A stretch of DNA of 64,000 nt from Physcomitrium patens (Eukaryota > Streptophyta > Bryopsida > Funariales > Funariaceae), in the NCBI RefSeq assembly GCF_000002425.4, contig NC_037264.1:8446104-8510103 (forward strand), in the 5' to 3' direction. Below, one piece after another: positions 22,737 to 53,144 of this stretch. Each line of letters begins with the position of its first letter. Position 1 is the stretch's first letter. The translations under genes were made by a program, and so were the position numbers. The notes beneath the pieces were generated by a model. That model searched no databases and was not told the origin of the DNA. It was given only the letters and a program-made list of their open reading frames with translations.

Positions 22737-24254
22737 GTTTGAAGAGAGTGCTAACTCTTTATCTTTTTTTTATTTTTAGAAAAGAATAGAATATCTTACT
22801 TTTATTATTATATTTTAAAGATTGCTTATTATCTACTTTTAAACTAACATTTAATTTTTAACTATTGATTTGCAACTATTGCAAATCTTTACAAGCTTAT
22901 TAGTACTCTTAGTAGAAATTTCATATATTTTCAATGTGAATCATAGAGATAGTATTTTGATGTTTATGGAAGATGTCAATATTGAAGTTTAAAGTCTATG
23001 CTTAAAAGTTGTGCAATTAAGAGAAGCAAGTAGATTAAATTTACAACTAAATTTGAGACGACTTGCTACTATAAGTATGAAGGAGGCAAGGATAAGTATG
23101 TCAAAGAAGTTTGATAGAAAAAGATCAAAATATGGAGGATTTCTTTGATACAACAAGTAAAGCTCTATTTAAGATTATATCCTTCTCAATATCTTAATGG
23201 ATCTACTTAAGTCAAGTTTATAGGTGCGCTTCTATCTAAGAGTATTCTTTCTTGATTTGCACCTTTGATGGAAAAAAAGTCACAACTACTCTATATTTTG
23301 AATTCATTCTTAGAAGTATTTATAGCCACATTTAAAAAAAATAATCAAAAAAAAGATAACAAAGATAAAACTTGTATCTTTACAACAATGATCATGTTCA
23401 ACTACCATATATGTTTTGAAATTCCAAATCCTTGCTTTTGATGTGGATTGAAATGATAAAGCCCTTATCAATCAATTTTAATATGGATTAAAAGATAATG
23501 TCAAAGATTTATTATTAACAATGCCAAGAACAAATTCATTGGAGCAATTTTTGCTTAAGCTATTGTATGCAATGATTGATTTTTTGAAACATGACAAAAA
23601 CAAGGATTTAATTGAAAAGATATAAGTCAAGTTATAGCTATAGCTTTAAAGTTTTTGGAAGCTTATTCATTCAAGCCAAAGCCTATACAAATTAACATGG
23701 TACATTTTAAATCTCTTATTGAGTAAGAAAAGATTCAACATTGTTAAGAAGATTTGTGCCTATATTGTAAAAAATCCAAGTACACTGCTCAATATTATTC
23801 AAAGAAGCAACATAACTACAAAATAACGAGCATGGTTACCAAAAAAGATGATGTATTAAAAAAAATATTTTTCTAATTATAATAGGAACCATGCAATTAG
23901 AATCTTATGTGATACCTAGTACAGGTTCTATTCTCTCTATGCCGTTCTTTATCCTTTGAAAATATCATTTATGAAATTTTTCCTTTAAATATAGTAACTA
24001 ATGATCATAATAGCTTAATAATACTTAATAACATTAGGTTTTTTTTCTAATCCAATTATTTTAGGATTATTGTGGCTAAAGAAATATAACCCTCAAATTG
24101 ATTAGGTTTCTTGAAATCTTGATTTTTTCCATAGTTTAGCTAAAACTTTTGCTAGTGAAGTAGACATCTATAAATTCAATATAACCAAATCTTTATTAGT
24201 AGGAGGAAAAGCTTTTATGCATGTTACAAAAGATGGACTACTTTTTGCTATATA
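22737..24254 (+). pseudogene. SP1 copy c, gag and protease remnant
   Basis: Homologous to the gag of copy e from 36059 on. Recognisable segments include KKFDRKRSKYGGF (about 23105-23145), the core region and a CLYC-type knuckle remnant (about 23750-23800), then protease-region sequence ending in LLWLKKYNPQID (about 24065-24105). A deletion has removed the protease active-site region, joining sequence near 23945 to later protease sequence. Many stops. The same deletion and many of the same stops occur in the minus-strand copy at 50.6-52.6 kb. Confidence 0.8.
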
Positions 24255-24556: not shown

Positions 24557-24568
24557 CTCCTACTTTGC
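24557..24568 (-). other. Copia polypurine tract
   Basis: On the minus strand the bases directly before the 3' LTR read GCAAAGTAGGAG, purine-rich and ending in GGAG. Such a tract primes second-strand DNA synthesis in LTR retrotransposons; the role is assigned by position. Confidence 0.7.
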
Positions 24569-24574
24569 TAATAT

Positions 24575-27500
24575 TCAAAAGGCTTTTAATCCTAATCTCT
24601 GAATCAAGTCATGATATCTATCCTTGACTAATGCCTTTGTTAGCACATCAGCAAGCATGTCATTTGTAGCACAATACTTTATACCTATTATTCCATCTTC
24701 AATCTTCTCTCGTTTGAAATGATGTTGAACATCAATGTGCTTGGTCCTTGAGTGGTATTTTGGATTCTTAGAAAATACAAGACATCCTTGATTGTTACAC
24801 ATAATGAAAGTTGCTTCTAGTTGCACTAGACCAATGTCTTCTAAGAGTTGCCTTATCCAACACGCCTCCATTACACAATGATTTGCTGCCATGTACTCTG
24901 CCTCCATCATTGATCTTGTAATGGTAGGTTGTCTCTTGTAATTCCATGAAATGGCTCCCACTCCAATAAAGAATACATATCCTATTGTGGATCTTCTATC
25001 ATTTACATCTCCAATCCAATCCGCATCACAATAACCTTGCAAATCAATGTTCTTACCACCAAGACATAATTTGAAGTCTTTTGTACCTTTTAAGTACCTC
25101 AAAATCCTCTTTACTGTTTTCGAATGCATTGGTCTAGCCTTAGACATGTGTTGGCTTACGACACTCACCACATACGCAAGATCCACTCTTGTAGCCACTA
25201 TTGCATATATGAAAGAGCCTACTACTGCTTTGTATGGAATACTTTACATCTCACCTTCAACTTCTGCAAACTCCTCATCAGTGAGCTTCATCAACTTCAA
25301 ATTTACCTCTAAGGATGTTTCAATAGGCTTGCACTCCTCCATGTTGAATCGTTTCAATACTTCTTCAATGTACTTGGTTTGACTCATTGTAATGGTCTTG
25401 TTACCATGATCTCTTACAAATTCTACTCCCAAGCAATAGTGCAACTCTCCCAAATCACTCATATCATATTCCTTCTCTAATTTGGCCTTCATCCAATCCA
25501 TCTTTTCCATATTGTTAGCCAAGATGATCAAATCATCAACATAAAGGATTATAATCAGCAAGAACTCTCTAGATTGTATCACATACAATGAATGATCAGC
25601 TTCATTCCTTACAAATCCTTCATTGATAAAGAAGGTGTCAATTCGTTGGTACCATGCCCTTGGTGATTGTTTCAATCCATATAAAGATTTCTTCAATTAG
25701 CAAACAAGATGTTCTTTGCCTTGTTGTACAAATCCTTGAGGTTGGTCCATGTAGATGTCTTCTTACAATTTTCCATTCAAAAAGGCCGTCTTCACATCCA
25801 TTTGGTGTATTTCCAAATCCATTGCAGCCCCAATTGCTACAATGATCCTAATGGTGGTGAATTTGGCAATGGGTGCATAAATCTCATTGAAATCAATTCC
25901 AGCAACTTGTGAGTATTCTTTGGCAACCAATCTTGCCTTGTGCTTCACCACCACACCTATTACATCTCTTTTAGTCCTAAACACCTACTTACAACCAACA
26001 CTAGATCGATTTCTTGGAAGAGGTGCCAATTCCTATGTACCATTATCCATAAGAGATTGGTACTCTTCTTCCATAGCCTTCTCCCACTTGATTGCATCTT
26101 TACACTTCATAGCATGACACAAAGATAATGGATCAGCAAGAAGAGCAACATTTACATATTCTTTTCTTACTTGAGGGAAGATGTGATCCTTCCACCATTC
26201 GCCATGTTGCTTTCTTTCTCTCAATAGATATCTCCTTTCATTAATTGAAGAACATTCACCTTGTTCTACTTTTTGTTCTTTTTCAACTTTTAAACCTTGT
26301 CGTTTCTCACTCAATGGTTGATACTTTTCATCATTATCATTATCCCAATCTTCAACATCTTCATTTGTTTCATTGCTGGTCTTTTCAATTATATGAGCCT
26401 TTATCTTTTCAACCTACTTTGGCTTTTCATCTTCATTGATGTCATCTTCTTGTTTCTTTGCTGAATTCAAAGATGTGTCCACAAATACACCATTACTCCC
26501 ACTTGGACACATCTCCAAATGCTCACAAGCACTCTTGTGCTCAAAAAATGCAACATCACAACTTTTGATGATCTTCTTGGTTTCCAAGCACATTAGCCTA
26601 TATGCCTTAGTACCTTTACAATAACAAAGAAACACATACTTTGTATCTTTTGCATCAAGTTTGGACCTCATACAATCTGGTGTTTTTGCATATTTAATGC
26701 AACCAAAGGTCCTCATATTGGAAATGCTAAGTTGTCTCCCACTCCAAGCTTCTTGTGGTGTCATTAATGCAAGAGCACTTGTTGGACATCTATTTCTTGT
26801 ATATACTGCATTCACCATAGCTTCCGCCCAAAACTCATAGCCAAGATTTTGAGCATGAAGCATGCTCCTTGCTATCTCTACAATGGTTCGATTTGTCCTT
26901 TCAGCAACACCATTTTGTTGTGGAGTGTATGGAGTTGTAGTTTGTCTAGTAATTCCTTCATTCTTCAAATAAACATCAAATTGCTTAGACATATACTCAC
27001 CTCTATTGTCCGTACATAGCACCTTGATCTTGCATTCACTTTGTTTCTCAACAAGTGCTTTAAACTCCTTAAACCTCCAAAAGCATTCACTCTTGGCTTT
27101 AAGAATGTAGATCCAAATCTTTCTTGAATAATCATCAATGAAAGTGAGGAAATACCTTGATCCTCCAATACTTGTGTTTTTCATAGGTTCACATACATTC
27201 AAATGGACAATCTCTAGCAACTTGGTAGCACGTATTGCTACACTCTTTGAAAATGAGGCCCTTTGTTGTTTGCCTTGTATGCATCCTTCACATGCAAGTT
27301 ATTTTACATTATGGCTTGTATTGCCAAGATCTAGGCCAATTACCATGGTCTTCAGCTTTCTCATGTTCTTCACATTCAAATGGCCAAGGCAATGATGCCA
27401 TATATTCAACTTGTCTTGATTTGATGTAAACTCAGCAAATGCAGCTACCTCTACTCCATTCACCTTCTTACAAATGAGGTAGTACAAATTTCCTTCTTTC

Positions 27501-27930
27501 AAGCCTTTGAAGACCTTGTCTCCACTCAATGTTCTTACAAAACATCCATTCATGTCAAATTAAACTTTAAAGCCTTCCGTTACAAGTTTACTCACCGAAA
27601 GTAGGTTTTGCTTCATCTTAGGCACATGAAGGACGTTTTTGAGTGTGATCCTATTGGTTTGTCCATTCACAACCACCTTGACCATAATAGAGCCAATTCC
27701 AATGGCTTCACATATACCACTATCTACCAACACCACATTTGATGCTGCAATAGCCTCATAAGTTTCAAATGAACACTTTTAAGGTGTCATATGCTTGGAA
27801 CAACCTGAATCTACAATCCATCTTGACATGGCAGCCATTGAGGTTCCATTTGTTGCCATGAATGCATAATCTTGTCCTCCAAACTCATCTTGCACACTAT
27901 TTGCATTTTCCTTCTTCATCTTTTTGCCTT
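24575..27930 (-). pseudogene. Copia pol: protease, integrase, RT, RNase H
   Basis: Reading down the minus strand: protease with VDSGCSKHM (about 27800); the integrase zinc region with WHHCLGHLN and CEGC (27240-27430); the integrase core (26414-27220) with CTDNRGEY and QQNGVAERTNR; reverse transcriptase (25244-25984) with KTAFLNG and YVDDLIIL (about 25535); and RNase H (24575-25198) with DADWIGD and an ADVLTKAL C-terminus. About ten in-frame stops interrupt it, many TAG or TAA in place of Trp or Gln. The first catalytic Asp of integrase, normally in an HTDVCGP context, reads VHLNVCEP (Asp to Asn). Coding capacity is otherwise near complete, so decay is moderate. Confidence 0.93.
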
Positions 27931-27934
27931 TGAA

Positions 27935-28659
27935 GCAATTTCAAAAAAAATGGCCTATTTTGCCACAAATGAAGCAAGATTTGATATTACCTCCTTGTTT
28001 TGAATAGTTGTCCTTGCTTTGACGTGAGTAGAGTGCTGAATTTTCACTTTGAGGTTGCTTTGACGCTGCTTTTCTTTCTTCTTAGTTACTTCATGGGCAA
28101 GTCTTGCCGTCACATAATCCATTATAAGCTCTTTTAGCTTGATAGATTCTAATGCCACAATAAGGTAGTTGTAGGATTTGGGAAGGCTCATTAGTAAGGT
28201 CATGACAATATCACTTTCTTCTAAAGGCTTATCAACAATTGCTAGTTGGTTTGCAAGAGCCATTACCTTATTAATATGAGTCATGAGGTCTTCACCTTCT
28301 TCCATCTTGCAAGTGAAGAACTTGCTCCTTGTATAGATGATGTTGGATAAGTTCTTGCTCTCATAGATGTTGCAAAGAGTCTTCCATGCTTCTGCTGGTG
28401 CTTTGGAAGAGATAATGTGAGAGAAGTTGGCTTCATCTACATTTATTGCAATCAACCCAAAAGCCTTCTTTTTACGATGTTTGAACTCCTTCTTCTCCTT
28501 CATATTAGCATCTTTGTTTGGAGCCTCTTCATTATCATCTACAATATCCCAAAGATCGAAAGATGCCAACAAAAGCTCCATTTTGACCTTCCAATGGTAG
28601 AAATTTTCACCTCTAAACTTCTCAATAACTCTCAATTCTTCACCCTCACTTGAAGCCAT
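27935..28659 (-). pseudogene. Copia gag with CCHC zinc knuckle
   Basis: Starts with ATG at 28659 (MASSEGEELRVIEKF) and runs open to about 28080. It contains the usual copia gag features: FRGENFYHWKVKMEL near the N-terminus and the LLMSLPKSYNYLI core. A single-base frameshift near 28055-28085 then separates it from the zinc knuckle at 27935-27976. The knuckle reads CFICGKIGHFF, a stop, then NC, with all four CCHC ligands intact and one TGA, probably from an Arg codon. Gag packages the RNA into virus-like particles. Confidence 0.9.
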
Positions 28660-29122
28660 GTCTAAGGAAGAATTGTATCAAAAAAGATTGTAAGAAGAAG
28701 TCCTAATGCTCTCAAAATGAAAAAAAAAGGTTTTGCTGCCTTAAAATCACAAAATCCTTCTTTGTGAACAAACTAGTGTTATAACTCTCAAAAATACTCT
28801 CAACTTCACTTCTAAGACTTCTCACAAGACTGGTGAGCTTTCCAAATCTAAATTGTCACTTTAATATCTCTCTTATACTCACAAGTCACCTCTATACACC
28901 AAAAGAGGCCTACTAAGCACAATAAGCAATTTTATGTGATAAACCAACCATCAACACCAAAATACTCTTAACCAGAAGTAAGAGCAAATTAAGATCTAGT
29001 TCTAGATCTGAATCTGAAAGTTAGGTACTTTTAATGCCTAACATCAGCAACAACAACTTGATCTACTCCACACTTACAAAAATACTTCAAAGACTTCAAA
29101 AAAAACACTCAAGCAAATGTGA

Positions 29123-29136
29123 GTGGGTCCATAACC
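29123..29136 (-). other. Copia primer-binding site (internal tRNA-iMet type)
   Basis: On the minus strand the bases directly after the 5' LTR read GGTTATGGACCCAC. Thirteen of 14 match the complement of the anticodon arm of plant initiator tRNA-Met (GTGGGCCCATAACC). This site type is known from Drosophila copia, where a 5' half-tRNA is the primer. Confidence 0.8.
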
Positions 29137-29439
29137 TATTGAAAAAGAGAAGTCTAAAGGCTACAAACACTTAGCATCAGCAAGGATTGTACTCTAAGAG
29201 AAGTGTGGAAGAAGATAATTCTTACTTCCAATACTCTTTACTTATAGGTGGTGGTTTGCCCACCAACAAGGCAACTTCCATCCATTTGATATTACATCTG
29301 TTTCTACCTCATCTTACTAAAGCCTCGGTAGTACCACAATAACTTACTTTACCTCTTTGCTACATTTTTACTATTAGCAATATACTATACTTAAATTTTA
29401 TGTGGTTGTAACTAAGCAAGTACTTGCTGTTCTTCAACA
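29137..29439 (-). repeat. Copia 5' LTR
   Basis: Upstream LTR of the minus-strand copia element. On the minus strand it begins TGTTGAAGAACAG, the less decayed of the two copies. It is followed directly by the primer-binding site and is flanked by the ATATA target duplication at 29440-29444. Confidence 0.95.
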
Positions 29440-29829: not shown

Positions 29830-31312
29830 TTGACTTTGAAATTTGAAGTACTTATTCTTAATTATTTTTAGATTTTTTTTGGAAGTCTTTTTAGAACGTA
29901 ATTCAAATTTAAATTTTAAATTTTGATGAATTTATTATTTATTATTTTTCTTTTTAAGCTTTCAAAAAAGCTCTGATTTGCTCTAAGAAGAGTTAGTTTG
30001 ATGTTGTGATTCTTTTTTGAATAAAGAAAGAATCAACTACTCTTTAAGATTTTTTTTGGAGGTTTGTTCATAGTTTATTTTGAATTTGAATTTGAAATTT
30101 TAAAACATTTTTTTTTCTCTTTATAAGCTTTTCAAAAAGCTTTTAGTCAAAAAATATTTATTCACTTCAACAAGAATTAGTATGAAGCTATGGTACCCTT
30201 TTGAATAAAAAAAGAACCAACCACTTTTTAAGATTTTTCTTTCAAGGTTTTTTCATAATATATTTTATATTTGGATTTGAAATTTTGAAGAGTTATTCTT
30301 TTTTTTATAAGCTTGCCAATCACTCTTTAGGATTTTTTTTAGAAATATTCATAGAATATGTTTGGAATTTAGATTTAAAATATTAGAGAATTATTTCTAT
30401 CTTTATAAGCTTTCCAAAAAGCATTCACTTATTCCAAGAGGAATTAATATGAAGGTGTAATGTTTTTTTGAATATAGAAAGAGCCAACCACTCTTTAGGG
30501 TTTTTTTTCATAGTGTATTTAAAATTTTATTTGAAATTTTGAAAAGTTATTTCTCTCTTTATAAACTTTCAAAAAAGCTCTTAATTACTCTAAGAAGATT
30601 TAATATGAACTTGTAGTATTTTTTTAGATAAAGAAAGAATTAACTATTTTTTAATATTTTTTTTGGAGGTTTTTTAGAATGTATTTTAAATTTGGATTTG
30701 AAATTTTAAAGAGTTATTTCTCTCTATATGAGATTTTCAAAAATCTCTTATTTTTTCTAAAAAGAATTTGTATAAATCTATGATATTCTTTTGGATTAAA
30801 AGCAAACTAGTCACTCTATAAGATTTTTCTTTGGAATTTTTTTCGTAATGTATTTCAAACTTAGATTTGAAATTTTAAAGAGTTGTTTCTTTCTTTATAA
30901 GCTTTTTAAAAAGGTCTCATTGAATCGAAAAATAATTAGTATAAAATTTCAATGTCTTTTGGATAACGAAAGAGTTAGCTATTCTTAAGGATTTTTTTTA
31001 TGGATGCTTTTTCAAAGTGTATTTTGAATTTGGATTTTAGATTTTGAAGAGTTATTTATCTTATTAAGAAATTTTTAGAATTATTTTATTCACTCCAAGA
31101 CTAATTAATATGAAATTGTGGTATCTTTATGTATAAAAAAAGAGCCAACTATACTTCAGGATTTTTCTTTGATATTTTTTTGTAGTATATTTCGAATTTG
31201 GATTTGAAATTTTGAAGAGTTCTTCCTTCTTTAATAAAATTACTAAAAAGCTTTTATTTACTTTGAGAAAAATTGATATGAAGTTAAGATATATTTTTTT
31301 TAATATAAAAAA
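29830..31312 (+). repeat. Tandem repeat, ~168-bp unit, about nine copies
   Basis: A recurrent block starting TTGAAATTTTGAAGAGTTAT occurs near 29836, 29914, 30092, 30277, 30374, 30531, 30698, 30867, 31035 and 31204. The last five lie 167-169 bp apart; earlier ones are irregular (78-185), indicating truncated units. Each full unit also carries an AAGCTTTCCAAAAAGC-like element, a GAATTAGTATGAAG-like element and an AGAGCCAACCACTC-like element. Units are non-coding and diverged. The array ends directly before the LTR at 31329. Confidence 0.85.
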
Positions 31313-31865: not shown

Positions 31866-34800
31866 GTATGACAAGAATTGTAACTCATTGTTCTTATTTT
31901 ATTTTAGAAGTAAGTGGATTACTTCACTTCTATTATTGTATTTTTGAAAGTTACATATTATCTACCTTTAAATTAACTTATTTTTTTTTAATACTAATTT
32001 TTTCTTAAAAAAAAAAGAATTATTTTTTTTTGTAAAAAATTTTAGTTGATATTAGAGATTGTAGAATATTCTTCTCTAATTAAAATTTTAAAATTTGTTT
32101 GAATTATATATAGAAGAAAAAATTATGGATACTATTCTTAGCAAAAGTAGAAATAGATTTATAACTATTATAGATCTTTACAAACTTATCAACACTCTTA
32201 GGATCAAAATCACATATAGTTCCAACATGAATTATAGAGGTACTATTCTTACGCCTATGGAAGAAGTCAATAATGAAGTTCAAAGTTTGTACCAAAAAGT
32301 TGTACAATTAAAAGAAACAAGTAGATCTAATTTATAACTAAATCTTTCTACTACAAGTATAAGGGAGGCAAAGACAAGTATGTTAAAGAAGTTTGATAGA
32401 AGAAGATCAAAGTTTTGAGGATTTCTACAACAAGTAAAGTTCTATCTAAGATAAAATCTTTCTCAATATTTTGATGGATTTACTTAAGTTGGATTCATAA
32501 GAATACTTTTCTCTGAAAGCCATCTTTTTAAATTTGTATCTTTGATGGAAAAAGATTCAAGAATAATTTATGATTTGAATTCATTTTTGAAAGTATTTAT
32601 AGCTATATTTAGAAAAAATTATTAAAAAAATATAGCAAAGATCAAGCTTGTATTTCTATAACAAAGATTATATTTTGCTATCATATATGTTGTTAAATTT
32701 CAAAATCTTGTAATATGGATTGGAATAACAAAGCCTTTATCAATCAATTTTGATATGAATTAAAAGACAACAATAAACAAATTTCTTTAGCTACAATAGA
32801 GACCATGCAACTAAAATCTTATACAATACCTAAAAGAAAACTTATTTTCTCATTAGATCCTTCATCTTGTTTTATAATAGATGTTTTTTTAAGACCAAAA
32901 AATCACAAAGTTTAAACCATATTAGATTTAAGAGCCTCAACTTATTTTATAGATAAGACTTTATTAAAAAATCATAAATATATTTATTTTAAAAAATCAA
33001 ATCTATACATATAGAAATAATAGATGGACGTTTGTTGTCTTTTTGAGATGTTATCTATGAAATCATTCTTTCAAATATTACAACTAGTGGTCATAATTTC
33101 TTAATAATATTTAATGTGATTATATCTTTTTTGAATCTAATTATTTTAGGATTATCATGGCTAAAAAAATATAAGCCTGAAGTAGACTAAATTTTTCTTA
33201 GCCTTGATTTTTTTCATAGTTTAATTTGATATTTTGATAGTCAAGTAAAAATCTATGAGTCCAATACATCCAAAAACTTATTGGTAGGTATGAGAGCTTT
33301 ATATATGTTGCAAAAGAAGGATCATTTTTTGCTATATATGCTGTATATGTTCTTATTGGAAAAAATATTTCAAATAATACTCTAATCTAATATTAAGATT
33401 ATTAAGATATTTAAAAGCATCATCCCTAGGATTATTACATTGATCTTCAAAAGAAATTCAACCACCATTTAGATTAATTTATAGCTTATCACAAAATAAG
33501 TTGGACGTACTCAAGGATTATATTAATATAAATTTGGCTAAGAACTAAATATGCTATTTTAAATCTTCAATATGAGCTTTCATCTTATTTGTGAAGAAAA
33601 AAGACAGATCTTTGTAGATATATGTGGACTATCAAGACCTCAACAAGATCACCATCTAGAATAGATATTCTCTATTTTTGATTTTAAGACTTTTTGATCA
33701 ACTTAATCAAAAAAAGATCTTTATAAAAATAAATCTATGAGAAGTATATAATCTAATATGCATTAAAGAAGGAGATAAATAAAAAATTACATTTTGAATC
33801 AAGTATGGATATTTTAAAAATAATGTCATAGCATTTGGATTCATGAATGCACCAACTACTTTTTAATATTTAATAAACAATGTCTTTTTTGAGTTTCTTG
33901 ACGAATTTGTTATTTATCATCTAGACAATATCTTAATCTACTTTGAGAATATTAAAGAGCATGAAATTCATATTTTTTATGTCTTATAAAAACTAAAAAA
34001 TGTAAGATTATATGCCAAGATAGAAATGTAAATATTTTATATTATTTAAGTTATTTTAAACCATAGTCTTTTGTTTCTATGGATTTTGTCACAAAACTTT
34101 TAGTCTTAAGATCTTATGATTCTATATTCATGATATTAGATCGATTCACTAAAATGACACATTTTGTACTATGTACAAAATCTATCAAAAGTAAAAAATA
34201 GCTATACTTTTTTTAGTAATATTTATTACTATTATAGATTATTTAAAGATATTATATCACATAAGAGGATTCAATTTGTATTAAGATTTAAAAAAATCTT
34301 TATTAAGATTCTAGAGATGGATATAAAGCTCTTTGGCTTATTATCTTCATATTGATAGACAAAAAAAATCATATAAATCAAGTTTTGGAGTGATATTTGA
34401 GATGTATCATTAATAAGATGATTGGAATTTTTTTTTCCATTAGTAAATTTTCTTCATGATAACATGGTACATTCTTCTACTCAAAAAATACTTTTATTAT
34501 CAATTATAATTATCATCTATGACTTGATATTTTTGACCTTTCAAAAATTGATAATCCTATGATAAAAGATTTAGAAAATTATTTATTTGAGCTCTATACA
34601 TTAATAAAGGCACAATTAAAAGAAGCTTAAGAATAAGAGAAGATCAATCCACATATCTATCATAAGAAGCAACTTCAATTGCACATTGACAACAAATTAT
34701 GGTTATTTCTTTGCAATATCAAGATTAACTACTCTTGTGAGAATTTTAATTATCAAAGGCTTAGACCATTTTTTATTTGTGAATAAATCAATCATATTGC

Positions 34801-35007: not shown

Positions 35008-35527
35008 TGATATTATATAATATGTTATCTTTTTTAAAAATACATATAGCACTTTGTTGTGAAAGGTGAAGTTATATTTTATAAGTATTCAAAAAATCCT
35101 TATTGCTTTCATCCATATAAAAAGAATGCAATTTGAATTTTAATTCAAAAGTACTTAAAGTTAATACAAAGTATTCAAAAATCTCCTTTTTAATAATTTC
35201 AACCATACACAAACTCCAATTACCTTATTACTTTTATGATTAAGCAATTTTGATTTCTCTTTGCAAGTCCTAATCCTAGTCAGTGAGCTTAAAGAAGCTA
35301 TAACTTCTAATTTAATTGTCTACTTGGTACAAAAGTTATCTTAAAAATGCCACTATAAGTCTTTTAATATGTTAAAAAAATTGAGTCCAATCTAATTAAT
35401 AGATTGTGAGAAAACATCCAAAAAAATTGTAATAATATCACTTGGCTATCAACTCAAAAATTGATGCAAATATTTTAGTAGTATTTGTTTTTCAACTATA
35501 AGCTTTAGCTCAAAATCAATGCATAGC
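35008..35527 (-). repeat. LL1 left LTR, first part
   Basis: Aligns along its whole length with 45614-46136 of the right LTR (shared landmarks include AATTTGAATTTTAATTCAAA and TGCCACTATAAGTCTT). It is cut at 35527 by the insertion of SP1 copy e and resumes at 43170. The last five bases, ATAGC, are the target duplication of that insertion. Confidence 0.85.
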
Positions 35528-36058
35528 TATCACAGACATATATATTTATCTCAATAGTTACTTATATGATTAAATAAAAGTAGATAAATATAGAATAATT
35601 TCATAAAGTCTTCTAGAGAAGCTTTCTAGAAGCTTCATAGACGCAATTTTGATTTTAGATGTATTTGTAGGTTAGAAACTTGGCCAAAAAGCTAACCATG
35701 TATTAGTACCTTGTGGAATAAGCCAACTACGTGGCGCATACATAGATAACTTGCATTGCAAAATAAGACATGTGGCTAACAAAGTCAACATATGTTGGAG
35801 GTCATATAAGACATTGCCACGTAGCTCTTAATTAGATAGTATATATAGAGGCAAGAATGAAGCCTTCTTCATTCTTGTCAATGCCTTTCTAATCTTAGTC
35901 TTGTTTCAAGACTTTTTAGTCTTTCTTGTTTTTGGCAATAGCCATTCTAGTTAATATTACATCACCTTTTGGGTGACTTTTGAGTGACTTTTGAGTTCTC
36001 TTCAGTGATAGAAGACTGTATTCAAGATTCTCTTTCTTCGAGATTCATATCCTTGACA
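35528..36058 (+). repeat. SP1 5' LTR (copy e)
   Basis: 531 bp, from TATCACAGAC (ancestral TGTCATAGAC) to CCTTGACA. It pairs with 42615-43164, which has an extra ~50-bp internal duplication around the TAGCTTGTGGAACAAG motif. Confidence 0.95.
35842..35881 (+). promoter_or_regulatory. SP1 LTR promoter and start of R region
   Basis: A TATATA box (35842-35847) lies 28 bp upstream of CATTCTTGTCAA (35870-35881). That is the normal TATA-to-start distance. The predicted transcript would therefore begin with this 12-mer, complementary to the bases just inside the LTR (36061-36072). The start site is predicted and has not been shown. The segment also forms the right arm of a hairpin with 35852-35862. 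Confidence 0.65.
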
Positions 36059-36060
36059 AT

Positions 36061-36072
36061 TTGACAAGAGTG
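36061..36072 (+). other. SP1 putative self-primer binding site
   Basis: TTGACAAGAGTG begins two bases after the 5' LTR. It is the exact reverse complement of CACTCTTGTCAA in the R region of the 3' LTR (42987-42998) and in the solo LTR at 48301-48312, and matches the 5' LTR at 11 of 12 positions. No usual tRNA primer complement (TGGTATCAGAGC or similar) is present. Confidence 0.7.
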
Positions 36073-36294
36073 CTAACATATTATTTTTATCTTATTTTAG
36101 CAGTGAGTGGATTATCCCACTTCTATTGTTGTATTTTGAAGGTTGTGGACTATCCACCTTTAAACAAAAAATCTTGTTTTTTAACACTGATCTTTTCCTT
36201 AAAGAGAGTAGATTATCCCTCTTTGTGGAATTTATTTTTAGAGGTTGTAGATTATCCTTTTCTAATTTAACTTTTGAATTTATTTGATTTGTCT

Positions 36295-37343
36295 ATGGAA
36301 GGAAAGATTATCGACGCTATTTTCAATGGAAGTGAGAATAGATTTGTAACTATGGCAGATCTTTATGAGCTTGTCAACACTCTAAGAGTAGAAATCTCAT
36401 GTATTTCTGATGTGAATCATGGAAGTACTATGCCTACGCCTATAGAAGAAGTGTAGAATCTGTGGCAAGAAGTTTTGCAGTTGAAAGAACCAAGTAGATC
36501 AACGTCACAACCAAATCCAGGGAATTTTGCTTCTATAAGTATGACATAGACAAGAATTAGTATGCTTGAAAAGTTTGATGGAACAAGATCAAAATTTCGA
36601 GGATTTTTGTAACAAGTCAAGCTTTATCTAAGGTTGCACCTTTTCTAATATCCTAATGGATTTACCTAAGTCAGATTTATAGGCGCACTACTATCAGGAA
36701 GTGCTCTCTCTTAATTTGTACCTTTAATGGAAAAGGATTCACAACTCTTTTATGATTTGAATTCATTCCTAGAAGTGTTTACGGCCACATTTGGAGAAAG
36801 TGATCGAAAATGAGTAGCAAAGACCAAACTTTTATCCTTACAACAAGGATCACAATGAGCTACTACATATGCTACAGAATTCCAAAACCTTACTTGCAAT
36901 GTGGACTGGAATGACAAAGCACTTATCAACCAATTTTGATATGGATTGAAGGATAGCGTCAAAGATTTGTTATTAACAATGCTAAAAGTAGAATCTTTGG
37001 AACAATTTATTACTTAAGCCATTGCATGCAACAATCATTTATTTAAGAGGCATCAAGAACAAAAATTTGATTGGAGAGGAAAAAATCAAGTAATGGCGAT
37101 AGCTCCCAAGTTTTTTGAAATGTATTCATCAAAGTCGAAACCAATGCAAATTGATATGATACATTTTAAATCTCTCACGAAGCAAAAAAAGACTCAACGT
37201 CGCCAAGAAGAGTTATATTTATATTGTGGAGAAATTAAGCTTACTGCTCAATATTATGCAAAGAAGCAATACAATTACAAAATATGGAGCACAATTACCA
37301 AAGAAGATAATGTGACAAAAAATGAGTTTCTCCACCTACAATA
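36295..37343 (+). pseudogene. SP1 copy e gag
   Basis: Start taken at ATG 36295 (MEGKIIDAIFNGSENRF). Segments visible: LEKFDGTRSKFRGFL (about 36560-36610), the Ty3-gag-like core including NVDWNDKALINQF (about 36895-36940), and a basic C-terminus with a zinc-knuckle remnant, LYCGEIKLTAQYYAKK (about 37215-37265), in which the last ligand Cys is now Tyr and the His is lost. Five or more stops, several replacing Gln. Gag forms the particle and binds the RNA. Confidence 0.85.
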
Positions 37344-37399
37344 GGGACCGTGTGGCTGGAATCATGTGCAATACTTAGTAAAGGTCCTATCCTCTCCTG

Positions 37400-40300
37400 A
37401 AATCCTTCACCTTGTTTTATAATAGAAATATATTTAGGACCTAATAATCACAAAATCTTTTCCTTGTTAGATTGAGGAGCCTCAGCATGTTTTATAGATG
37501 AAGATTTTGCCAAAAATCAAAAAATATCTTTAATGAAGAAAGTTAAACTTGTACATGTAGCAGTCATAGATGGTCATTTGTTGTCTTCTAGAAATGTTAC
37601 AAATAAAACTATTCTTTTAGATATAGTAATTAAATATCATAACAACATAGTAGCATTTAATGTAATAAAATCTCCCTCTAATCTGGTTATTTTAGGATTA
37701 TCATGGCTAGAAAAATATAACCCTCAAATAGATTGGATTTCTCATAATCTTAACTTTTCTGATAGTTTAATCTAAGATTGCATTAGCAAAGTAGAAGTAC
37801 GCAAGTCTAGTATGTCCAAACTTTACTACTAGGTGCAAAAACTTTCATGCATGCTACAAAAGAAGGATTATCTTTTGTTATATATGCTACATCCATTTCT
37901 AATGGTAAAACAATATCGAGTGGTATTCCTAAATAATATCAAGAATTCCAAGACGTTTTTGAAAAGAAGAATGTAGATATTCTCCTCAAGCATCGACCTA
38001 ATGATTGTTCAATTGATCTGTAAGAAAGAGCTCAACCACCATTTGGACCAATCTATAGCTTATTGCAGAATGAGTTGGTTGCATTAAAGGAGTATATTGA
38101 TGAAAATTTGGCAAAGAACTTCATACGCTATTCTAAATCTCCAACCGAGGCTCCTATCTTATTTGTGAAGAAGAAAGATGGATCTCTACAAATATGTGTG
38201 GATTATCGAGGATTCAACAAGATCACCATCAAAAATAGATATCCTTTGCCTTTAATTTCAGGACTTCTTGACCAACTCAATCAAGCAACAACCAAAATAG
38301 ATCTATGAGGAACATACAACTTAGTTCATATCAAAGGAGATAAATAGAAGACTGCTTTTCGAACTAGATATGGATATTTTGAATATAATATCATAGTTCG
38401 TGAATTTTTAGATGATTTCGTTGTTTGCTATTAAGACAAAATTCTAATCTACTCTAAGAATATAGAAGAATATGAGCTTCATGTTTGTTTGTCTCGTGTT
38501 ACAAAAACTTAGAAATGCAGGATTATATGCCAAGTTGAAAAAGTATGTATTCCACACTACTCAAGTTGACTTTTTAGGATACATCATTTTCAACGAAGGC
38601 CTTATGATGGATCCCAAGAAGGTTCAAACTATCATAGATTAAAAGATTTTAAGAATAGTATGAGATGTACAATACTTTTTGGACTTTGCTAATTACTATC
38701 AAATCTTCATCAAGAATTTTTCTCAAGTTGTAGCTCCACTTACACGTTTGACTTGTAAAAATAAATTTGAATGAAATAAAGAAGCAAAAGCATCATTTGA
38801 TGCTTTAAAGAAAGAATTTATTTCTACACCAATTTTATGTTGCGTTGACTTCTCTAAGATATTTTTTATGGAAACAAAAGCATTAGATTTTGCTATAGGT
38901 GCCGTATTGTGACAAATGGAAACAGATGTCAAACTCCACCTAATAGCTTTTCATTAGAGGAAATTTTCAACAGCCAAAATTAATTATGAAATCCATAACA
39001 AATAGCTCCTTGTAATCATGGATTCATTTCAAGAATGGCATCATTATCTAGAAGGTACCTCAAGTCCAGTTACAATATATACAGACCATAAGAACCTCGA
39101 GTACTTCATGTCAGCACATGTCTTGAATTATCGTCAAACCTATTGGAGCATGTTTTTATCTAGATTCAATTTCAAGTTCACTTATCGACTTGAAAAATAA
39201 CAAGGTCTATTAGACACTCTTTTTAGACATTCTTATCTTACACCAAAAGAAGAAGATGCATCTTTTTATCAACAAAGATCAATTTTTTTGAAGCCCGAGC
39301 ATTTTTATCTTCAAGCTATAAAATCAACATTGACTATGGATTCAACATTTGTGAAGCAAATTCAATCAAGCATATCTTCTGATTATCTTGTTTAGGATAT
39401 CAAGGATACTTCCTCTAAGTCCCATGATACTTTCAAGTTTGAATTCAAGAATAATCTATTATATTTTGAAGGACACCTATATATTTCAGAAGATGAAGCT
39501 CATTTATGTGTTCTTGAAGCTCGTCATGACTTTCCAGCACAGGACATTTTGGATACAATAAAACTTTGGAACTAATATCTAAGGATTTTTGGTGGCTGCA
39601 AATGTGAAAGGTAGTTAAAGATTTTGTACAATCTTGTGATATTTGCTCAGGATCAAAAACTCCTCATCATCGAACTTATGGACTTCTTCAGCTGTTACTC
39701 ATTCGAGAACAACAATGGTATATTGTATCTATGGGTTTCATCATGGATCTTCTAATCTTAGGTTCTTATGACTCTATATTCATGATAGTAGATGGTTTTA
39801 CCAAGATGACACATTTTATACTATGTACAAAATCTATCATCGGTGAAGAAACAGCTAGGCTTTTCATTTACAATATCTATCGCTATCATGGATTATCAAA
39901 GGATATTATATCGAATAGGGGGACTCAATTTGTATCAAGATTCTAAAGAATCATATTCAAGATTTAAAAGATGAATATAAAGCTTTCTTCAGCTTTTCAT
40001 CCTCAAACCGATGGACAAACAGAACGAATAAATCAAGTTTTCAAGTAGTATTTGAGATGTACCATCAACTATCATCAAGTTGATTGGACAACTCTTTTAC
40101 CATTGGTAGAGTTTACATATAATAATTTGATATATTCTTCCATTCAACAAATACTTTTCTTTGTCAATTATGGTTATAATCCACGTCTTGATACTTTTAA
40201 CTTTTCAAAAGTTAATAATCCTGCGACAGAAGATTTAGCAAATCGCTTGTCAGAGCTAATACAAAAAAGAAGATACAATTAAAGAAAGCTCAAGAATGGC

Positions 40301-40673
40301 AAAAAACCAATATGGATGCCTCTCCTAAGAAGCAACCATAATATAATATGGGTGACAAGGTATGATTACTTCATTGTAATATGAAGACTACTCGTCCTTG
40401 TGATAAATTAGATTATTGTAGGTTGGGACCTTTTCCTATTTGTGAACAAATCAATCTTGTTGCCTATCGATTACATCTACTGGAGTCTATGAAGATCCAC
40501 CCTATATTTCATGTGTCTCTTCTGGAGCCGTATAAGACAGTGAATATCTTGGGAAGAAGAAAAATGCTACTTCCTCCTATAAAAGTAGATAATAACCAAG
40601 AGTTTGAGGTAGAAGAAGTCTTAGACTCAAGGTGGCACCAAAATAGGTTAGAATATCTTGTTCATTAGCACGG
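37400..40673 (+). pseudogene. SP1 copy e pol: protease, RT, RNase H, integrase
   Basis: Protease region 37430-37775 (an EEPQHVL-type frame shift hides the active site; VILGLSWLEKYNPQIDWI follows). RT 37990-38620: [21 protein letters not shown] and NRYPLPLI are clear. About 60 bp covering the MPFGLTNAP-type block are deleted near 38396, and the catalytic YLDD box reads Y, stop, DK. RNase H 38720-39200: [13 protein letters not shown] and [10 protein letters not shown]. Integrase 39290-40300: MVDGFTKMTHFI-type core, SNRGTQF, HPQTDGQTERINQ. GPY/F module 40380-40560: RLGPFPICEQ and IHPIFHVSLLEPYK. The chromodomain starts with EEVLDSRWHQNRLEYLVH before the 40674 insert. Confidence 0.92.
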
Positions 40674-41754
40674 TGTCGGGGTAGAGAGGTTTTGCCTCAA
40701 GAAAGCGCTGGGCTTCTGGCTGTCACTAATTACTCAATCAAGCTTAAAATAAGAAAACCCTAATTTTATATATATAAGTTCTCCTTTTGGGAAAATTACA
40801 CCAAATACTTAAGTCTTAAATAACCAACAATACCCAAAATATGGTAGAAGTACTCTAAAACCTTGTATATCCTTGTGTGGAAATTCTCCTGAACCTCAAC
40901 ACCTCATAACTCTTGATCCAACCGTCCAAACAAGATCAAAATTTACATGAAGTACAGATAAGTTGTTATTAATTTGTACAACAAATTTCAACCGCAAATT
41001 CATCGCGGATCTTGAGATACCTTCAAAACCCTAACAGTCGCTTCAAACCCTAATCTTTATATACCCGCGCGCAACTTTCTTCATATCTCACAAACCATAA
41101 GTCCAAATGCCACGAAACTTATATAGATAGATTTTTAACACAAATTTTTACATTATCTTAAAGTTTGAGCCAAAATTTCGTTCGAAAACTCAAGTTATGC
41201 CTCCTAACACTACTTTGAACAAAACCACTCACTTACTGCCTTTGATTTGAATGCGTTGTCTTTAACTCCCTATAACTCCTTCACATAAACTCCAAATGCA
41301 AAATTTTTTTTCGCAAAAGATGTATGTCTTAAAGTTGCCCTTTCAACCGCACCTTCCGATCTCCAAAAGCTTCCGTAAGACTCCTCTTAAACTCAAAAGA
41401 GTAACAGTAGGTCTCAAATTGACACCTTAACTTCAAACGGCTATAACTTATTCACCCTAACTCCAAACCCTATAAAATTTGCACAAAAATTGTAGCCAAA
41501 ACCCTAAACTTTACAACCTTTGCATTTGATTTCCTAATGGCCTCTTTGAAGTCGCCGAAACCCTTGTCAAGGTCGCCGGCAGCCTCCTAAAAGCCCATTG
41601 GGCATGGATTTCGACCAATGGGGATGAAGATCCTTATTTCTACCTTCATCCAACCATGCCTTGGTTTCATCCCTCCCAATTAACCTCCTATTAGTTTAAA
41701 TCTTCATCTTTAGGCTTCTATCTTCTCCCAAGGCTTCATACTAAATATTTAGGT

Positions 41755-41790
<36 letters not shown>

Positions 41791-41947
41791 AATGTCAAAA
41801 TCAAAAGAAGTAAAGAAACAAAGTAAAGTTTCTTATGCCAACTCCTTTTAATTTAATCTACTAGCCACTCTAACACACATCTAGATTTATAAACATATAA
41901 CATGTTTTAGCTAATTTTTATATATTGTAAGCATTTACAGTACGACA
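40674..41947. repeat. 1274-bp solo-LTR-like insert in the chromodomain
   Basis: Begins TGTCGGGGTAG and ends GTACGACA, giving 5-bp inverted ends TGTCG/CGACA, with a 4-bp direct repeat ACGG on both sides (40670-40673, 41948-41951). Skipping it restores continuous chromodomain codons. It is richer in CpG than the surrounding SP1 sequence, so it is younger. It carries four AAACCCTAA motifs, a (TA)n run (about 41757-41788) and no ORF of note. It may be distantly related to LL1 LTRs, sharing loosely similar CTATAACTCC-type phrases. Family not identified. Confidence 0.8.
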
Positions 41948-41951
41948 ACGG

Positions 41952-42033
41952 ATATGATATTAGTGAACGCACATGGGAGCCATCAAAGAATCTTATAAAT
42001 GCAGCAAAGAAAGTTGGACTCTTTCATCAATGA
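41952..42033 (+). pseudogene. SP1 copy e chromodomain, second half
   Basis: Encodes YDISERTWEPSKNLINAAKK and then VGLFHQ and a stop. The W-G-Y-D-x-S-E-x-T-W-E-P pattern is the signature second half of a chromodomain. Its first half ends at 40673. Chromodomains of chromoviruses tether integrase to modified histone H3 and steer integration to heterochromatin. Confidence 0.9.
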
Positions 42034-42599
42034 CATCCATCAAAATCAAGATGAAGAATAACAAACCTTTGCTATAAAAGAAACAAGATCAAAAGAAAAT
42101 AACATTCTACCTTCTATCTTTCATTGTAGCTTCTGTGTATTTGTGATGACATGGAGCACCAACAACTAGCAGATTCAATTCAAGAGCTTTCATTCGCGGA
42201 CTTATCAGTTGAGACATTGCGATTGTGAAAACCTTCAAGATCATGAAATGAAAATGAAGATCCTCAAGAATGACATGTCCTTCTTCAAATAGATGGTGAG
42301 ATACAATGTGTTTAGTATCACGATCTTGGAAGAAACTCCTGATGTTTATTGATTTTATTAGAGGTAGGAACAACTCTTCATGGTGTTTCAATTGTTTTAT
42401 TTAAAGAAAGTTATGAAGGCCTCAACAATGATCAAATAATAGGGTGGTTTTTTCACCCTACTATGGGACACTGTAAATGGTAGAGAGGACCTATCAACCA
42501 TCTTTGAAGAGTGCAAAGATCAGAGTATGTAGCAAATATAATTCGCCGCAGCTTGAACTTCTTCAACATATGAAAATCGCTCCTCGTGGAACTCGTCCC
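42034..42599 (+). other. SP1 3' non-coding region
   Basis: About 570 bp between the chromodomain stop and the purine tract. It recurs in copy d (47070-47610), copy g (49715-50010) and, inverted, copy j (53945-54100), so it is a fixed part of the element. It includes a perfect hairpin, arms TAGGGTG and CACCCTA near 42440-42462. A 94-codon antisense frame is not kept in other copies, so I do not call it. Confidence 0.75.
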
Positions 42600-42614
42600 T
42601 AGAAGGAAGGATAA
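42600..42614 (+). other. SP1 polypurine tract
   Basis: Purine-rich AGAAGGAAGGATAA directly before the 3' LTR. The equivalent spot in the inverted copy j reads AGAATAGAGGGTAA. This position primes plus-strand DNA synthesis. Confidence 0.75.
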
Positions 42615-43164
42615 TATCACGTACATATATATTTATCTCAATAGTTACTTATATAATTAAATAAAAGTAGGTAAATAGAAAATAATTTTATAAAGTCTTC
42701 TAGAGAAGCTTTCTAGAAGCTTCATAGATGCAGTTTTGACTTTAGATGTGTTTGTAGGTTAAAAACTTGGCCAAAAAGCTAACCATGTATTAGTAGCTTG
42801 TGGAACAAGTTACCTCCATATAATAGCTTGTAGAACAAGCCAACTATGTGGTGCATATATAAATAACTTGCCTTGCAAGATAAAACATGTGGCTAGCAAA
42901 ATCAATACATGTTGGAGGTCCTATAAGATATCGCCACGTAGCTCTTAATTAGATAGTATATATGGAAGCAAGAGTAAAGCCTTCTTCACTCTTGTCAATA
43001 CCTTTCTAGTCTTAATCTTGTTTCAAGACTTTTTAGTCTTTCTTGTTTTTGGCAATAGCCATTCTAGTTAATATTATATCACCTTTTGAGTGACTTTTGA
43101 GTTCTCTTCAGTGATAGAAGAGTATATTGAAGATTTTCTTTTTTCAAGATTCATATCCTTGACA
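42615..43164 (+). repeat. SP1 3' LTR (copy e)
   Basis: 550 bp, from TATCACGTAC to CCTTGACA, flanked on the right by the target duplication ATAGC. It retains the unmutated R-region 12-mer CACTCTTGTCAA (42987-42998). The length difference from the 5' LTR comes from a local duplication near 42790-42840. Confidence 0.95.
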
Positions 43165-43987
43165 ATAGCTTGATCTTCAAGTCCTTTAATACTATTTTAA
43201 ATTTTACTTTTTTCAAATAATTCAATCTTTAGATATCATAGAAATCGTGCTCAATTCCAAATTGCTAGTTTTTGATACTTCCTTGTACTAAAAACTAGAT
43301 ATCTTTCAATCACATTATTAAATTAATATAAATTTTATACACATTTAATAATCCTATTAACCGAGTACAATCATATTTTGAACCATTGATGTAATATCAA
43401 TTCAACAAACTAGCTGAGAATACTAGCTCTAATTGTATTGCATAAATTCAAAGTCACAAATATAAGTCTTGATTTTGAACAAAAATTACAAAGTTATTTC
43501 AAATCATATGAAAGTAAAATTTATGCTATGAAAACGACCTTAAAGCAAGGTCATCAATCTTAGTCATTGATCTTTGAATAACTTCATGTTTTCCTTTAGG
43601 TGACCATTTTAGTAGTTAGAATTTGATTTCAATCATATTTTAGAAATAATTATTCCCTATGTATCATTTTAACCTATCTTAGAAATATTTTAGTTGAATC
43701 TTATTTTCAACTTAATCTTAGTTTCAACCATATTTATTATTTATGACTTCTATCTTATTTTTACTAATTTATAGCTTTTTTAAAGCAATAAAAGAGGATC
43801 TATAGCCTCAAAGGTAAAATTATTGACCAAATTTTAATCTATTAACTATTTAGACAAGAAAATAAATTAAGAGACTTTTATAAAATCTATGTTTAAATAT
43901 CTTAAATTATTATTGAATTAAAATAATTAGATACTAGTTAAAAATTTATTTTTATTTATATTTTCATCATATAATAGTATTACAATA
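43165..43987 (-). repeat. LL1 left LTR, second part
   Basis: Begins with the second ATAGC target copy, then continues the LTR exactly where 35527 left off when compared with the right LTR at 46136-46946. It ends in TATTACAATA. Confidence 0.85.
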
Positions 43988-50553: not shown

Positions 50554-53144
50554 TAAAAACAAGTAGGAATATTGATAAAATCAAAATGCATGACATTAAA
50601 TTCAATAATGCCTACACATATTTTAAAACAAAGTTATCCATTCATCACCTTTTTCCATACAAATTAGGTTTTACATTCTTCATAGATCTATTTTTTTATA
50701 GATCTTTGCTTAAATGAATTGATTAAGAAGTCTTAAAATTTTAAAAAAAATTATATCTATTCATGATAGTGATCTAATTGAGTCTTCAATAATCCATATA
50801 CATCCACAATGATCCATCTTTCTTCTTTACAAATAAGATAGGAGCTTAGCTAGATATTTAGAATAGCATATGAAGTTTTTGGCCAAGTTCTTGACATTGT
50901 ATACCTTGAGAGCAGCCACCTTCTTTTGTGATAAGCTACAAATTGGTCTAAGTAGTAATTGAGCTCCTTCTTAAAGATTGATGGAATAGTCATATAAATG
51001 ATGCTTTAGAAGAATATCAATATTTTTCTTTTCAAAAACATCTTGGTAAGCTTGATACTAACTTGGAATGCTATTTGGGCCTTTCTTCTACTGAAATTAA
51101 TTATAGCATATATAGCAAAAAATAGCCTGTCTTTTGTAACATGCATAAAAGCTTTTGCTCCTAATAATAAAGATTTGGTTATATTGAGTTTATAGATGTC
51201 TACTTCACTAGCAAAAGTTTTAGCTAAACTATAGAAAAAATCAAGATTTCAAGAAATCTAATCAATTTGAGGGTTATATTTCTTTAGCCGCAATAATCCT
51301 AAAATAATTGGATTAGAAAAAAAATCTAATGTTATTAAGTATTATTAAGCTATTATGATTATTAGTTATCATATCTAAAGGAAAAATTTCATAAATGATA
51401 TTTTCAAAGGATAAAGAACGGCATAGAGAGAATAGAACCTGTACTGGGTATCACATAAGATTTTAATTGCATAGTTCCTATTATAACTAGAAAAACGTTT
51501 TTTTTAATACATCATCTTTTTTAGTAACCATGCTCTTTATTTTGTAGTTATGTTGCTTCTTGGAATAATATTGAGCAGAGTACTTGGATTTTCTACAATA
51601 TAGGTATAAATCTTCTTAATAATGTTGAATCTTTTTTTACTCAATAAGAGATTTAAAATGTACCATGTTAATTTGTATAGGCTTTGGCTTGAATGAATAA
51701 GCTTCCAAAAACTTTAAAGCTATAGCTATAACTTGACTTATACCTTTTCAATCAAATCCTTGTTCTTGTCATGTTTCAAAAAATCAATCATTGCATACAA
51801 TAGCTTAAGCAAAAAATTACTCTAATGAATTTGTTCTTGGCATTGTTAATAATAAATCTTTTACATTATCTTTTAATCCATATTAAAATTTATTGATAAG
51901 GGCTTTATCATTTCAATCCACATCAAAAGCAAGGATTTGGAATTTAAAAACATATATGATAGTTGAACATGATCATTGTTGTAAAGATATAAGTTTTATT
52001 TTTGTTATCTTTTTTTTGATTATTTTTTTCAAATGTGGCTATAAATACTTCTAAGAATGAATTCAAAATATAGAATAGTTGTGACTTTTTTTCCATCAAA
52101 GGTACAAATCAAGAAAGAACACTCTTAGATAGAAGCGCACCTAAAAACTTGACTTAAGTAGATCCATTAAGATATTGAGAAGGATATAATCTTAAATAGA
52201 GCTTTACTTGTTGTACCAAAGAAATCCTCCATATTTTGATCTTGTTCTATCAAACTTCTTTGACATACTTATCCTTGCCTCCTTCATACTTATAGTAGCA
52301 AGTCGTTTCAAATTTAGTTGTAAATTTAATCTACTTGCTTCTCTTAATTGTATAACTTTTAAGCATAGACTTTAAACTTCAATATTGACATCTTCCATAA
52401 ACATCAAAATACTATCTCCATAATTCACATTGAAAACATATGAAATTTCTACTAAGAGTACTAATAAGCTTATAAAGATTTGCAATAGTTGGAAATCAAT
52501 AGTTGAAAATTAAATGTTAGTTTTAAAGTGGATAATAAGAAATCTTTAAAATATAATAATAAAAGTAAGATATTCCATTCTTTTCTAAAAACAAAACAAG
52601 GATAAAAAGTTAGTACTCTTGTCAAACTATCAAGAATATGAATCTCAAATAATTTAAAGATTAATACATTCTTATGTTACTTAAAAAGACTAGATAATTA
52701 TTCAAAGGTGAAATAATGTTAAATTAAGATGGTGATTGTTAAGGCAAAAAGATTAAAAAGTTTTGAAATAAAAATAAGGATAAGAAAGGTATTGATAAAA
52801 ATGAAGAAGGCTTCACTCTTGCCTCTCAATATACTATCTAACTAGGAGCTATATGGCAATGACCTCTGATATGTATTCAATTTATAAGACACATGTTTTA
52901 ACTTGCTAGGTAAGTTTCTTATATGTATGGCACATTGTTAGCTTGTACTATAATCTATCAATTCATACAAAATGTGGCTAATTTATTGACCAAGTGTCTA
53001 ATCTATCAATCAAATATAAACATGTATAAAGTCAAATATGCCTCTATGAAGCTTCTATAACGATTTTCTATAAAATAATATAAAATCTATTTATATTTAG
53101 ATTTATGTAGGTACTTATCTAGGTAAATATACATGTCTATGATA
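50554..53144 (-). mobile_element. SP1 copy h, 5' half, inverted
   Basis: On the minus strand: LTR (53144 down to 52628), a leader with GTTTGACAAGAGTAC (11 of 12 bases of the putative primer site), gag, protease remnant, then RT up to the NxPTxF block, ending at 50559. About 95% identical by eye to copy c over the gag-to-RT region, sharing its protease-region deletion and many stops. It keeps the uninterrupted sequence at the copia insertion site (about 51100). It ends exactly at LTR g. Confidence 0.85.

Follow-up and report, generated by a model that had tools for sequence, protein, structure and literature searches.

The SP1 element of the moss Physcomitrium patens is very probably a member of a large moss chromovirus family that reverse-transcribes from its own mRNA, as does Tf1. 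Self-priming had been proposed in the original prediction from a single stretch of 64,000 nucleotides (hereafter the window; contig NC_037264.1, positions 8,446,104 to 8,510,103). It is supported here by the co-variation of leader and R between families, by complementarity that is perfect in 19 of the 20 long-frame copies examined, and by leaders that lack TGG in their first 12 nt in all 30 loci of the SP1 subfamily. The start of transcription is predicted from the sequence to be the A of a CA dinucleotide that lies 31 nt past the first T of the TATA box. The RNA would pair through its first 11 nt with a site two bases past the 5' LTR, as the complementarity of the two suggests and as folding predicts in most copies. 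By analogy with Tf1, RNase H would then cut past nucleotide 11, and the freed 3' end would prime minus-strand DNA. A hairpin of the LTR, which would form at the 3' end of the RNA only, may hide the second primer copy from the primer site.

Element e, the SP1 copy that carries the primer site first noticed, is broken, and its internal region contains short open frames only. Identity between the two LTRs is 91.6% across 521 aligned columns (gaps excluded), the differences being 36 transitions and 8 transversions. Their limits are supported by the ATAGC duplication on both flanks and by the purine tract before the 3' LTR (Table 1). In relatives the purine tract is GGGAGGATAA and lies directly before TGTCA. 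Two pieces of the polymerase region are recognised by Pfam, an RNase H and an integrase C-terminus. The Chromo match that follows has an E-value of 0.032, which is under the curated Pfam cut-off, and PF00385 (chromodomain) is present in many relatives of the integrase C-terminal piece. Among these relatives are one protein from a moss, Ceratodon purpureus (63%), and one from a fungus, Grifola frondosa (45%).

Table 1. Coordinates of SP1 features in the window (position 1 is its first nucleotide).
Feature	Position	Strand	Evidence or remark
SP1 element e, decayed Ty3/gypsy chromovirus	35528..43164	+	LTR pair and 5-bp target duplication ATAGC
Target site duplication ATAGC, left copy	35523..35527	+	sequence
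Target site duplication ATAGC, right copy	43165..43169	+	sequence
5' LTR of element e	35528..36058	+	
3' LTR of element e	42615..43164	+	
TATA box of 5' LTR, element e	35840..35847	+	predicted +1 is the A after C at 35871
LTR hairpin left arm, element e 5' LTR	35850..35862	+	in U3, upstream of predicted start; 13-position stem
LTR hairpin right arm, element e 5' LTR	35867..35879	+	contains primer nt 1-9; 4-nt loop
Predicted self-primer, first 11 nt of R, 5' LTR	35871..35881	+	one base off
Primer binding site, 11 nt	36061..36071	+	matching 12th base at 36072 extra
RNase H piece (Ty3-type) of element e	39006..39200	+	Pfam RT_RNaseH, E 2.4e-12
Integrase C-terminal SH3 (Tf2-1 type) and chromodomain start, element e	40366..40668	+	Pfam SH3_Tf2-1, E 2.6e-15
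Polypurine tract AGAAGGAAGGATAA of element e	42601..42614	+	sequence; precedes 3' LTR
Same hairpin, 3' LTR of element e	42967..42996	+	partly decayed
Self-primer sequence in R, 3' LTR	42988..42998	+	perfect complement of primer site
Primer site, copy c	22739..22750	+	10/12 bases kept
Primer site, copy d	31868..31879	+	9/12 bases kept
Primer site, copy h	52614..52625	-	11/12 bases kept

Several other features accompany the SP1 copies of the window. An apparent copia element (24337-29437) is nested in copy c. The direct repeats at its ends, 24337-24554 and 29220-29437, are 94% alike, and by eye the minus-strand frames between them resemble copia gag, integrase and RT-RNase H. Immediately upstream of copy d, 29949-31242 is occupied by tandem-like repeats of about 168 bp. 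A run of several adjoining partial SP1 LTRs is present at 47623-48684, with a second TATA-R unit at 48472-48684. The U3 of the 5' LTR of element e contains at 35624-35636 an array (TTCnnGAAnnTTC or GAAnnTTCnnGAA) that we take to resemble the heat-shock element motif. The array is also present in the related loci L003, L006 and L063 and was not found in L073.

The leader 12-mer TTGACAAGAGTG is present at 36061-36072, two bases past the LTR end ..CCTTGACA (36058), as had been claimed. Its reverse complement is likewise perfect at 42987-42998 and 48301-48312 and one base off at 89-100 and 35870-35881. To these can be added a perfect R 12-mer on the minus strand at 53552-53563, in an inverted LTR, which the original prediction had not listed. 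The complement had been placed shortly downstream of the TATA box, and the distance in element e is about 30 nt. The primer-site variants reported for copies c, d and h were also recovered (Table 1). Of 4000 dinucleotide shuffles, none reached the 12 nt over which the 3' LTR is complementary to the leader, and 68 of 4000 reached the length of the 9-nt exact run between the mutated 5' LTR and the leader. The R 12-mer also pairs with an upstream arm within the LTR, a feature that the original prediction did not mention and that is described below as the LTR hairpin.

Two sets of copies were drawn from the moss genome. A DNA search with the R-to-leader stretch of element e gave 6435 first-look candidates and, among them, at least 40 scored matches; 30 of these were taken as SP1-subfamily loci, and the first, L022, is element e. 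R and leader form 12 of 12 Watson-Crick pairs in 13 of these loci, 11 in 11, 10 in 5 and 9 in 1; the best match elsewhere within the same R-to-leader stretches reaches 8 or 9 pairs. In 29 of the 30 copies, the C of the R 12-mer comes 30 nt after the first T of the TATA box. The second set came from a protein search with the chromodomain of locus L006, for which 150 loci were listed in the moss genome. An open frame of 1100 aa or more is present in at least 36 of these, and 20 of the 36 were taken, with 0.5 kb around the expected leader. These 20 long-frame copies were picked by their open polymerase frame, independently of the leader sequence. R and the primer site are present in all 20, with 11 of 11 pairs in 19 and 10 of 11 in L109, and complementarity is thus perfect, not lost, in 19 of these 20 more intact copies. 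Two of the copies (L098 and L105) have LTRs that end in TTGATA, and R and site are perfect in both. Nine further leaders of family 1 gave seven that are perfect over 11 nt and two (L086 and L093) with 10 of 11 pairs. An 11-nt exact complement anywhere in the LTR was reached by 6 of 4000 shuffles for L085 and 5 of 4000 for L083.

Because pairing is perfect over 11 nt in 19 of the 20 long-frame copies, the primer is best taken as 11 nt, with its first base at the A of the CA dinucleotide at TATA+31. Neither of the bases that flank the 11-nt duplex is paired in any of the 20, and a 12-nt primer for the family, with its 12th base unpaired in 20/20, was rejected. The 12-nt duplex originally described therefore stands for element e, where the pairing is true; in the family the duplex is 11 nt long, with no 12th pair as a rule. 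A paired 12th base is present in L091, L082 and element e, and in L091 pairing extends one base further on both sides of the 11 nt. Judged from the sequences, this extra pair is an addition in element e and in many subfamily copies.

The test that had been suggested, co-variation of the leader with R, gave a positive result between families. Three of 30 chromodomain-anchored loci (L052, L062 and L063) have a different R, AGTCTCGACAA, and represent family 2. The site of this family, TTGTCGAGACT, was predicted from R before the leaders were read, and it was found in L082 and L083, in both two bases past TGACA. A third family 2 stretch, L084, contains no recognisable R and no site. Relatives outside the mosses were sought by a scan of bacterial and archaeal genome contigs, which yielded 17 loci resembling stray eukaryotic DNA; contig scans found no relatives among viral contigs. 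Three of the loci (L003, L004 and L006) and a further one from the same assembly (L018), together referred to as the L003 group, have the site TTGTTCGCCTT or TTGTTCACCTT and a matching R at TATA+32. Their R and site form 11 of 11 pairs in a sequence unlike that of the moss families. A cross-table of seven representatives gives 10-11 of 11 pairs when R and site come from one family or group, and 4-8 when they come from different ones. Seven of the 11 duplex positions vary across the representatives, and one of these seven, position 2, includes broken pairs.

L010 and L011 have a 9-nt complement after the LTR, which was located by eye and with a shorter search word, and are without the U3-R hairpin; they are stray contigs of chromoviruses that may be fungal. 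Locus L005 has an LTR hairpin, and its contig contains no leader. When its assembly was searched for the predicted site, 2 matches were obtained, versus 4 and 4 for reversed controls; both matches looked unrelated, and L005 was rejected as another family. Several contigs (L001, L003-L008 and L015) of an uncultured Trichormus assembly (ERR2144891) resemble eukaryotic retrotransposons, and by its sequences the assembly seems to be contaminated with eukaryotic DNA. Trichormus is the genus of the Azolla symbiont, and the fern Azolla is a likely source of the L003-group contigs. A WRKY plant marker had no match in the Trichormus assembly, nor in control genomes, so that its absence carries no information.

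The co-variation of R and site also bears on conventional priming, in which a host tRNA would prime from the leader and the R complement would be accidental. We give this explanation almost no credence, and it was rejected on the leader letters: TGG is absent from the first 12 nt past the LTR in 30 of 30 SP1-subfamily loci, which agrees with the earlier statement that no tRNA-type site follows the LTR. Similarly, TATCAGAGC occurs in 0 of the 30 loci within about 60 nt past the LTR and nowhere in the window. What speaks for a tRNA is a short motif, AATATCAGAGCT, present in 5 of 9 moss leaders of families 1 and 2, with a one-base-off version in 4 of the 9. It resembles the core of the initiator-Met primer site that is usual in plants. 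The motif or its variant lies 19-22 nt past the start of the primer site in L082, L083, L085-L090 and L092, where it is displaced and without TGG; it is perhaps a relic of a tRNA site. A tRNA-type site does exist in one related contig, L014, which carries TGGTATCAGAGGC adjoining CACAG.

Self-priming is further consistent with most predicted folds of leader RNA begun at the predicted start base. The mean pair probability of the duplex between primer and primer binding site (PBS) is at least 0.75 in 24 of the 30 SP1-subfamily loci; in the other 6 it is 0 to 0.45, and these folds do not favour the duplex, which counts against self-priming. It exceeds 0.9 in L003, L004 and L006. Among eight further moss leaders it exceeds 0.9 in five and is 0.35-0.48 in three, which show no clear preference for the duplex. 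A second duplex, of the LTR end with the sequence right after the primer, appears in the folds of L003, L004 and L006 and is like part of the Tf1 'pretzel' as outlined in PMC10085805. That structure consists of three duplexes, whereas here the central duplex is predicted in most leaders, the second in these three, and the third was not seen in the predicted folds of the SP1-subfamily, L003-group and further moss leaders.

The LTR hairpin involves the primer itself. Its right arm is formed by the first 9 nt of R and the 3-4 bases that precede them, and its left arm is a part of U3 downstream of the TATA box and upstream of the predicted start. The stem has 13 positions in moss families 1 and 2 and 12 in L003, L004, L006 and L018 (with one mismatch in L004); in all of these the loop is 4 nt long and the stem ends at primer nucleotide 9. 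Among the 30 chromodomain-anchored loci, R is recognisable in the 3' LTR of 29, L078 being the sole case in which none was recognised. The hairpin is unbroken in 27 of the 29, with G:U counted as paired, and has one broken pair in 2. The scored 5' LTRs of long-frame copies contain no broken pair in 18 of 18. The z-scores of the hairpin core range from -4.2 to -8.7 in 8 of 10 hairpin-bearing examples and are -3.1 for L005, whose hairpin is of a different geometry, and -2.2 for the 3' LTR of the window. The hairpin is absent from the LTRs examined of L010 and L011. The 5' LTR of L082 is without the left arm, which is present in the 3' LTR of the same copy (L062).

Since the left arm lies upstream of the predicted start, only the R copy at the 3' end of the RNA should fold into the hairpin. 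In isolated pieces, the primer is predicted to be unpaired at 12-25% with U3 versus 30-94% without it in 9 of 10 hairpin-bearing examples; the values for L005 are 46% and 74%. The stem is calculated at -15.9 to -21.0 kcal/mol versus -12.1 to -16.2 kcal/mol for the primer:PBS duplex, and it is the stronger of the two in 6 of 7 examples. In L004 the hairpin is weaker than the duplex (-12.1 vs -14.1 kcal/mol). A possible function, which we put forward tentatively, is that the hairpin masks the 3' primer copy and so restricts the self-primer to the 5' end. If this is true, the masked 3' R would be spared from annealing to the primer site and from cutting, and would be saved as the acceptor of first-strand transfer, with the 5' copy left free. 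The modelled pairing figures fit masking of the 3' copy and are no proof of it.

The hairpin may instead be without function. Template-switch correction of imperfect palindromes is a known mutational process, and template switching during reverse transcription could mend the palindrome and keep its arms matched. Such an origin, which we consider nearly as probable as masking, would suit arms that vary between families in a stem that yet stays nearly perfect. It leaves unexplained why the register is fixed across moss families 1 and 2, L003, L004, L006 and L018, all of which have a stem that ends at primer nucleotide 9 and a loop of 4 nt.

Two further readings concern the primer. First, the leader could be a stray copy of the hairpin left arm, and the R complement a by-product of an LTR palindrome with a role in the promoter. 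Left arm and leader do have CAAGAGT in common in family 1 and GTTCGCCTT in L003. The match to R, however, is 11 nt long and extends to a CAA end that is missing from the left arm; its place, in the L003 group as in both moss families, is two bases past the LTR; and L010 and L011 have their 9-nt complements after the LTR without such a hairpin. A stray arm is therefore highly improbable. Second, the element could be self-primed from a transcript that starts upstream of the left arm, in which case the primer would be internal and the hairpin would also stand at the 5' end of the RNA. The left arm begins about 10 nt past the start of the TATA box, and the transcript start is itself predicted from sequence. 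Against this, complementarity ends at the base after C, at TATA+31-32 nt, in the moss families and the L003 group (pairing is one base longer in L082 and L091, and the spacing in L011 is about 45 nt). A distance of 31-32 nt from the first T of the TATA box to the start is usual in plants. An upstream start is thus very unlikely, and we infer that the paired 11 nt are the first nucleotides of the RNA.

Self-priming through the start of the mRNA is known from the Tf1/sushi group, in which the first 11 nt of the RNA are complementary to a site next to the 5' LTR (described in PMC7175516 and PMC10085805). SP1 resembles Tf1 of Schizosaccharomyces pombe and the Tf1/sushi elements, as portrayed in these two papers, in the 11-nt complement and in the chromodomain integrase. 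Unlike Tf1, the SP1 family adds an LTR hairpin that contains primer nucleotides 1-9. Neumann et al. (2019; PMC6317226) have reported that most plant Tcn1 elements are without tRNA sites and are predicted to be self-primed, and that the copia lineage TAR is predicted so too. Their criterion was a complement of at least 10 bp beginning 0-5 bp past the LTR. The prediction draws on the same kind of evidence as ours, and the passages on this clade report no experiment. The mechanism is thus not new, moss and club-moss Tcn1 elements having already been predicted to be self-primed by that survey. The original description of SP1 as unusual for a plant element holds against seed-plant chromoviruses; for most Tcn1 elements of mosses and club-mosses, PMC6317226 gives the same prediction. 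The limit of 11 nt at a TATA-directed start and the hairpin are not reported in the passages of that paper on the plant Tcn1 clade.

Reports also exist on individual elements. SM-Tcn1 of Selaginella is a Tcn1-like chromovirus with a TG..CA LTR from a non-seed plant, and in these respects it is like SP1; in the account of Novikova et al. (2010; PMC2864245), self-priming was not found for this element, unlike what is predicted for SP1. PpatensLTR2 of Physcomitrella has been placed in a Tf1/sushi tree in the S. osmophilus paper (tree of PMC10085805). The most abundant element of P. patens is RLG1, characterised in PMC7466625 as a gypsy element with a chromodomain, with 5092 complete copies and transcription in protonema. 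The abundance given there fits the 6435 first-look SP1 candidates in the 470-Mb assembly, and from the likeness of the descriptions SP1 may well be RLG1. Several chromoviruses are stated in PMC3601003 to prime with a 5' hairpin; by its context this is a fold of the primer to its site, unlike the U3-R hairpin. No description of a U3-R hairpin was found in the papers searched, including the portions bearing on priming in PMC3601003, PMC10085805, PMC7175516, PMC4600332, PMC5445492 and PMC6317226; for so limited a set of papers this absence is weak. The hairpin is the new part of the SP1 case.

The polymerase relatives were also placed in a tree. The moss families and the L003 group fall in one clade (support 95/93) with the chytrid Powellomyces and four unnamed proteins. 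Cunninghamella stands next to this clade, and L010, L011 and the fish elements stand outside it. The row farthest from the others, which sits on a long branch, is that of L014, the contig that carries a tRNA-type site. The tree was rooted at the midpoint, and its rows exclude named Tcn1, Tf1 and seed-plant elements, so that the grouping of the moss polymerase relatives with fungal elements, as had been anticipated, is that of a tree without a seed-plant row. The organism-named proteins among the best 120 of 7823 listed for L003 are from fungi, fish and amoeba, and none is from a seed plant.

Overall, self-priming is by far the best reading of SP1, which thereby documents well a type of element whose existence in mosses had already been predicted. 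The survey-level prediction is sharpened to a primer of 11 nt, a start at one base 31 nt past the TATA box, and co-variation across families. If SP1 is the transcribed RLG1, these points would be testable at the bench in the model plant Physcomitrium. The hairpin raises a general question for self-primed elements with repeated ends, namely how they keep the 3' primer copy out of the reaction.
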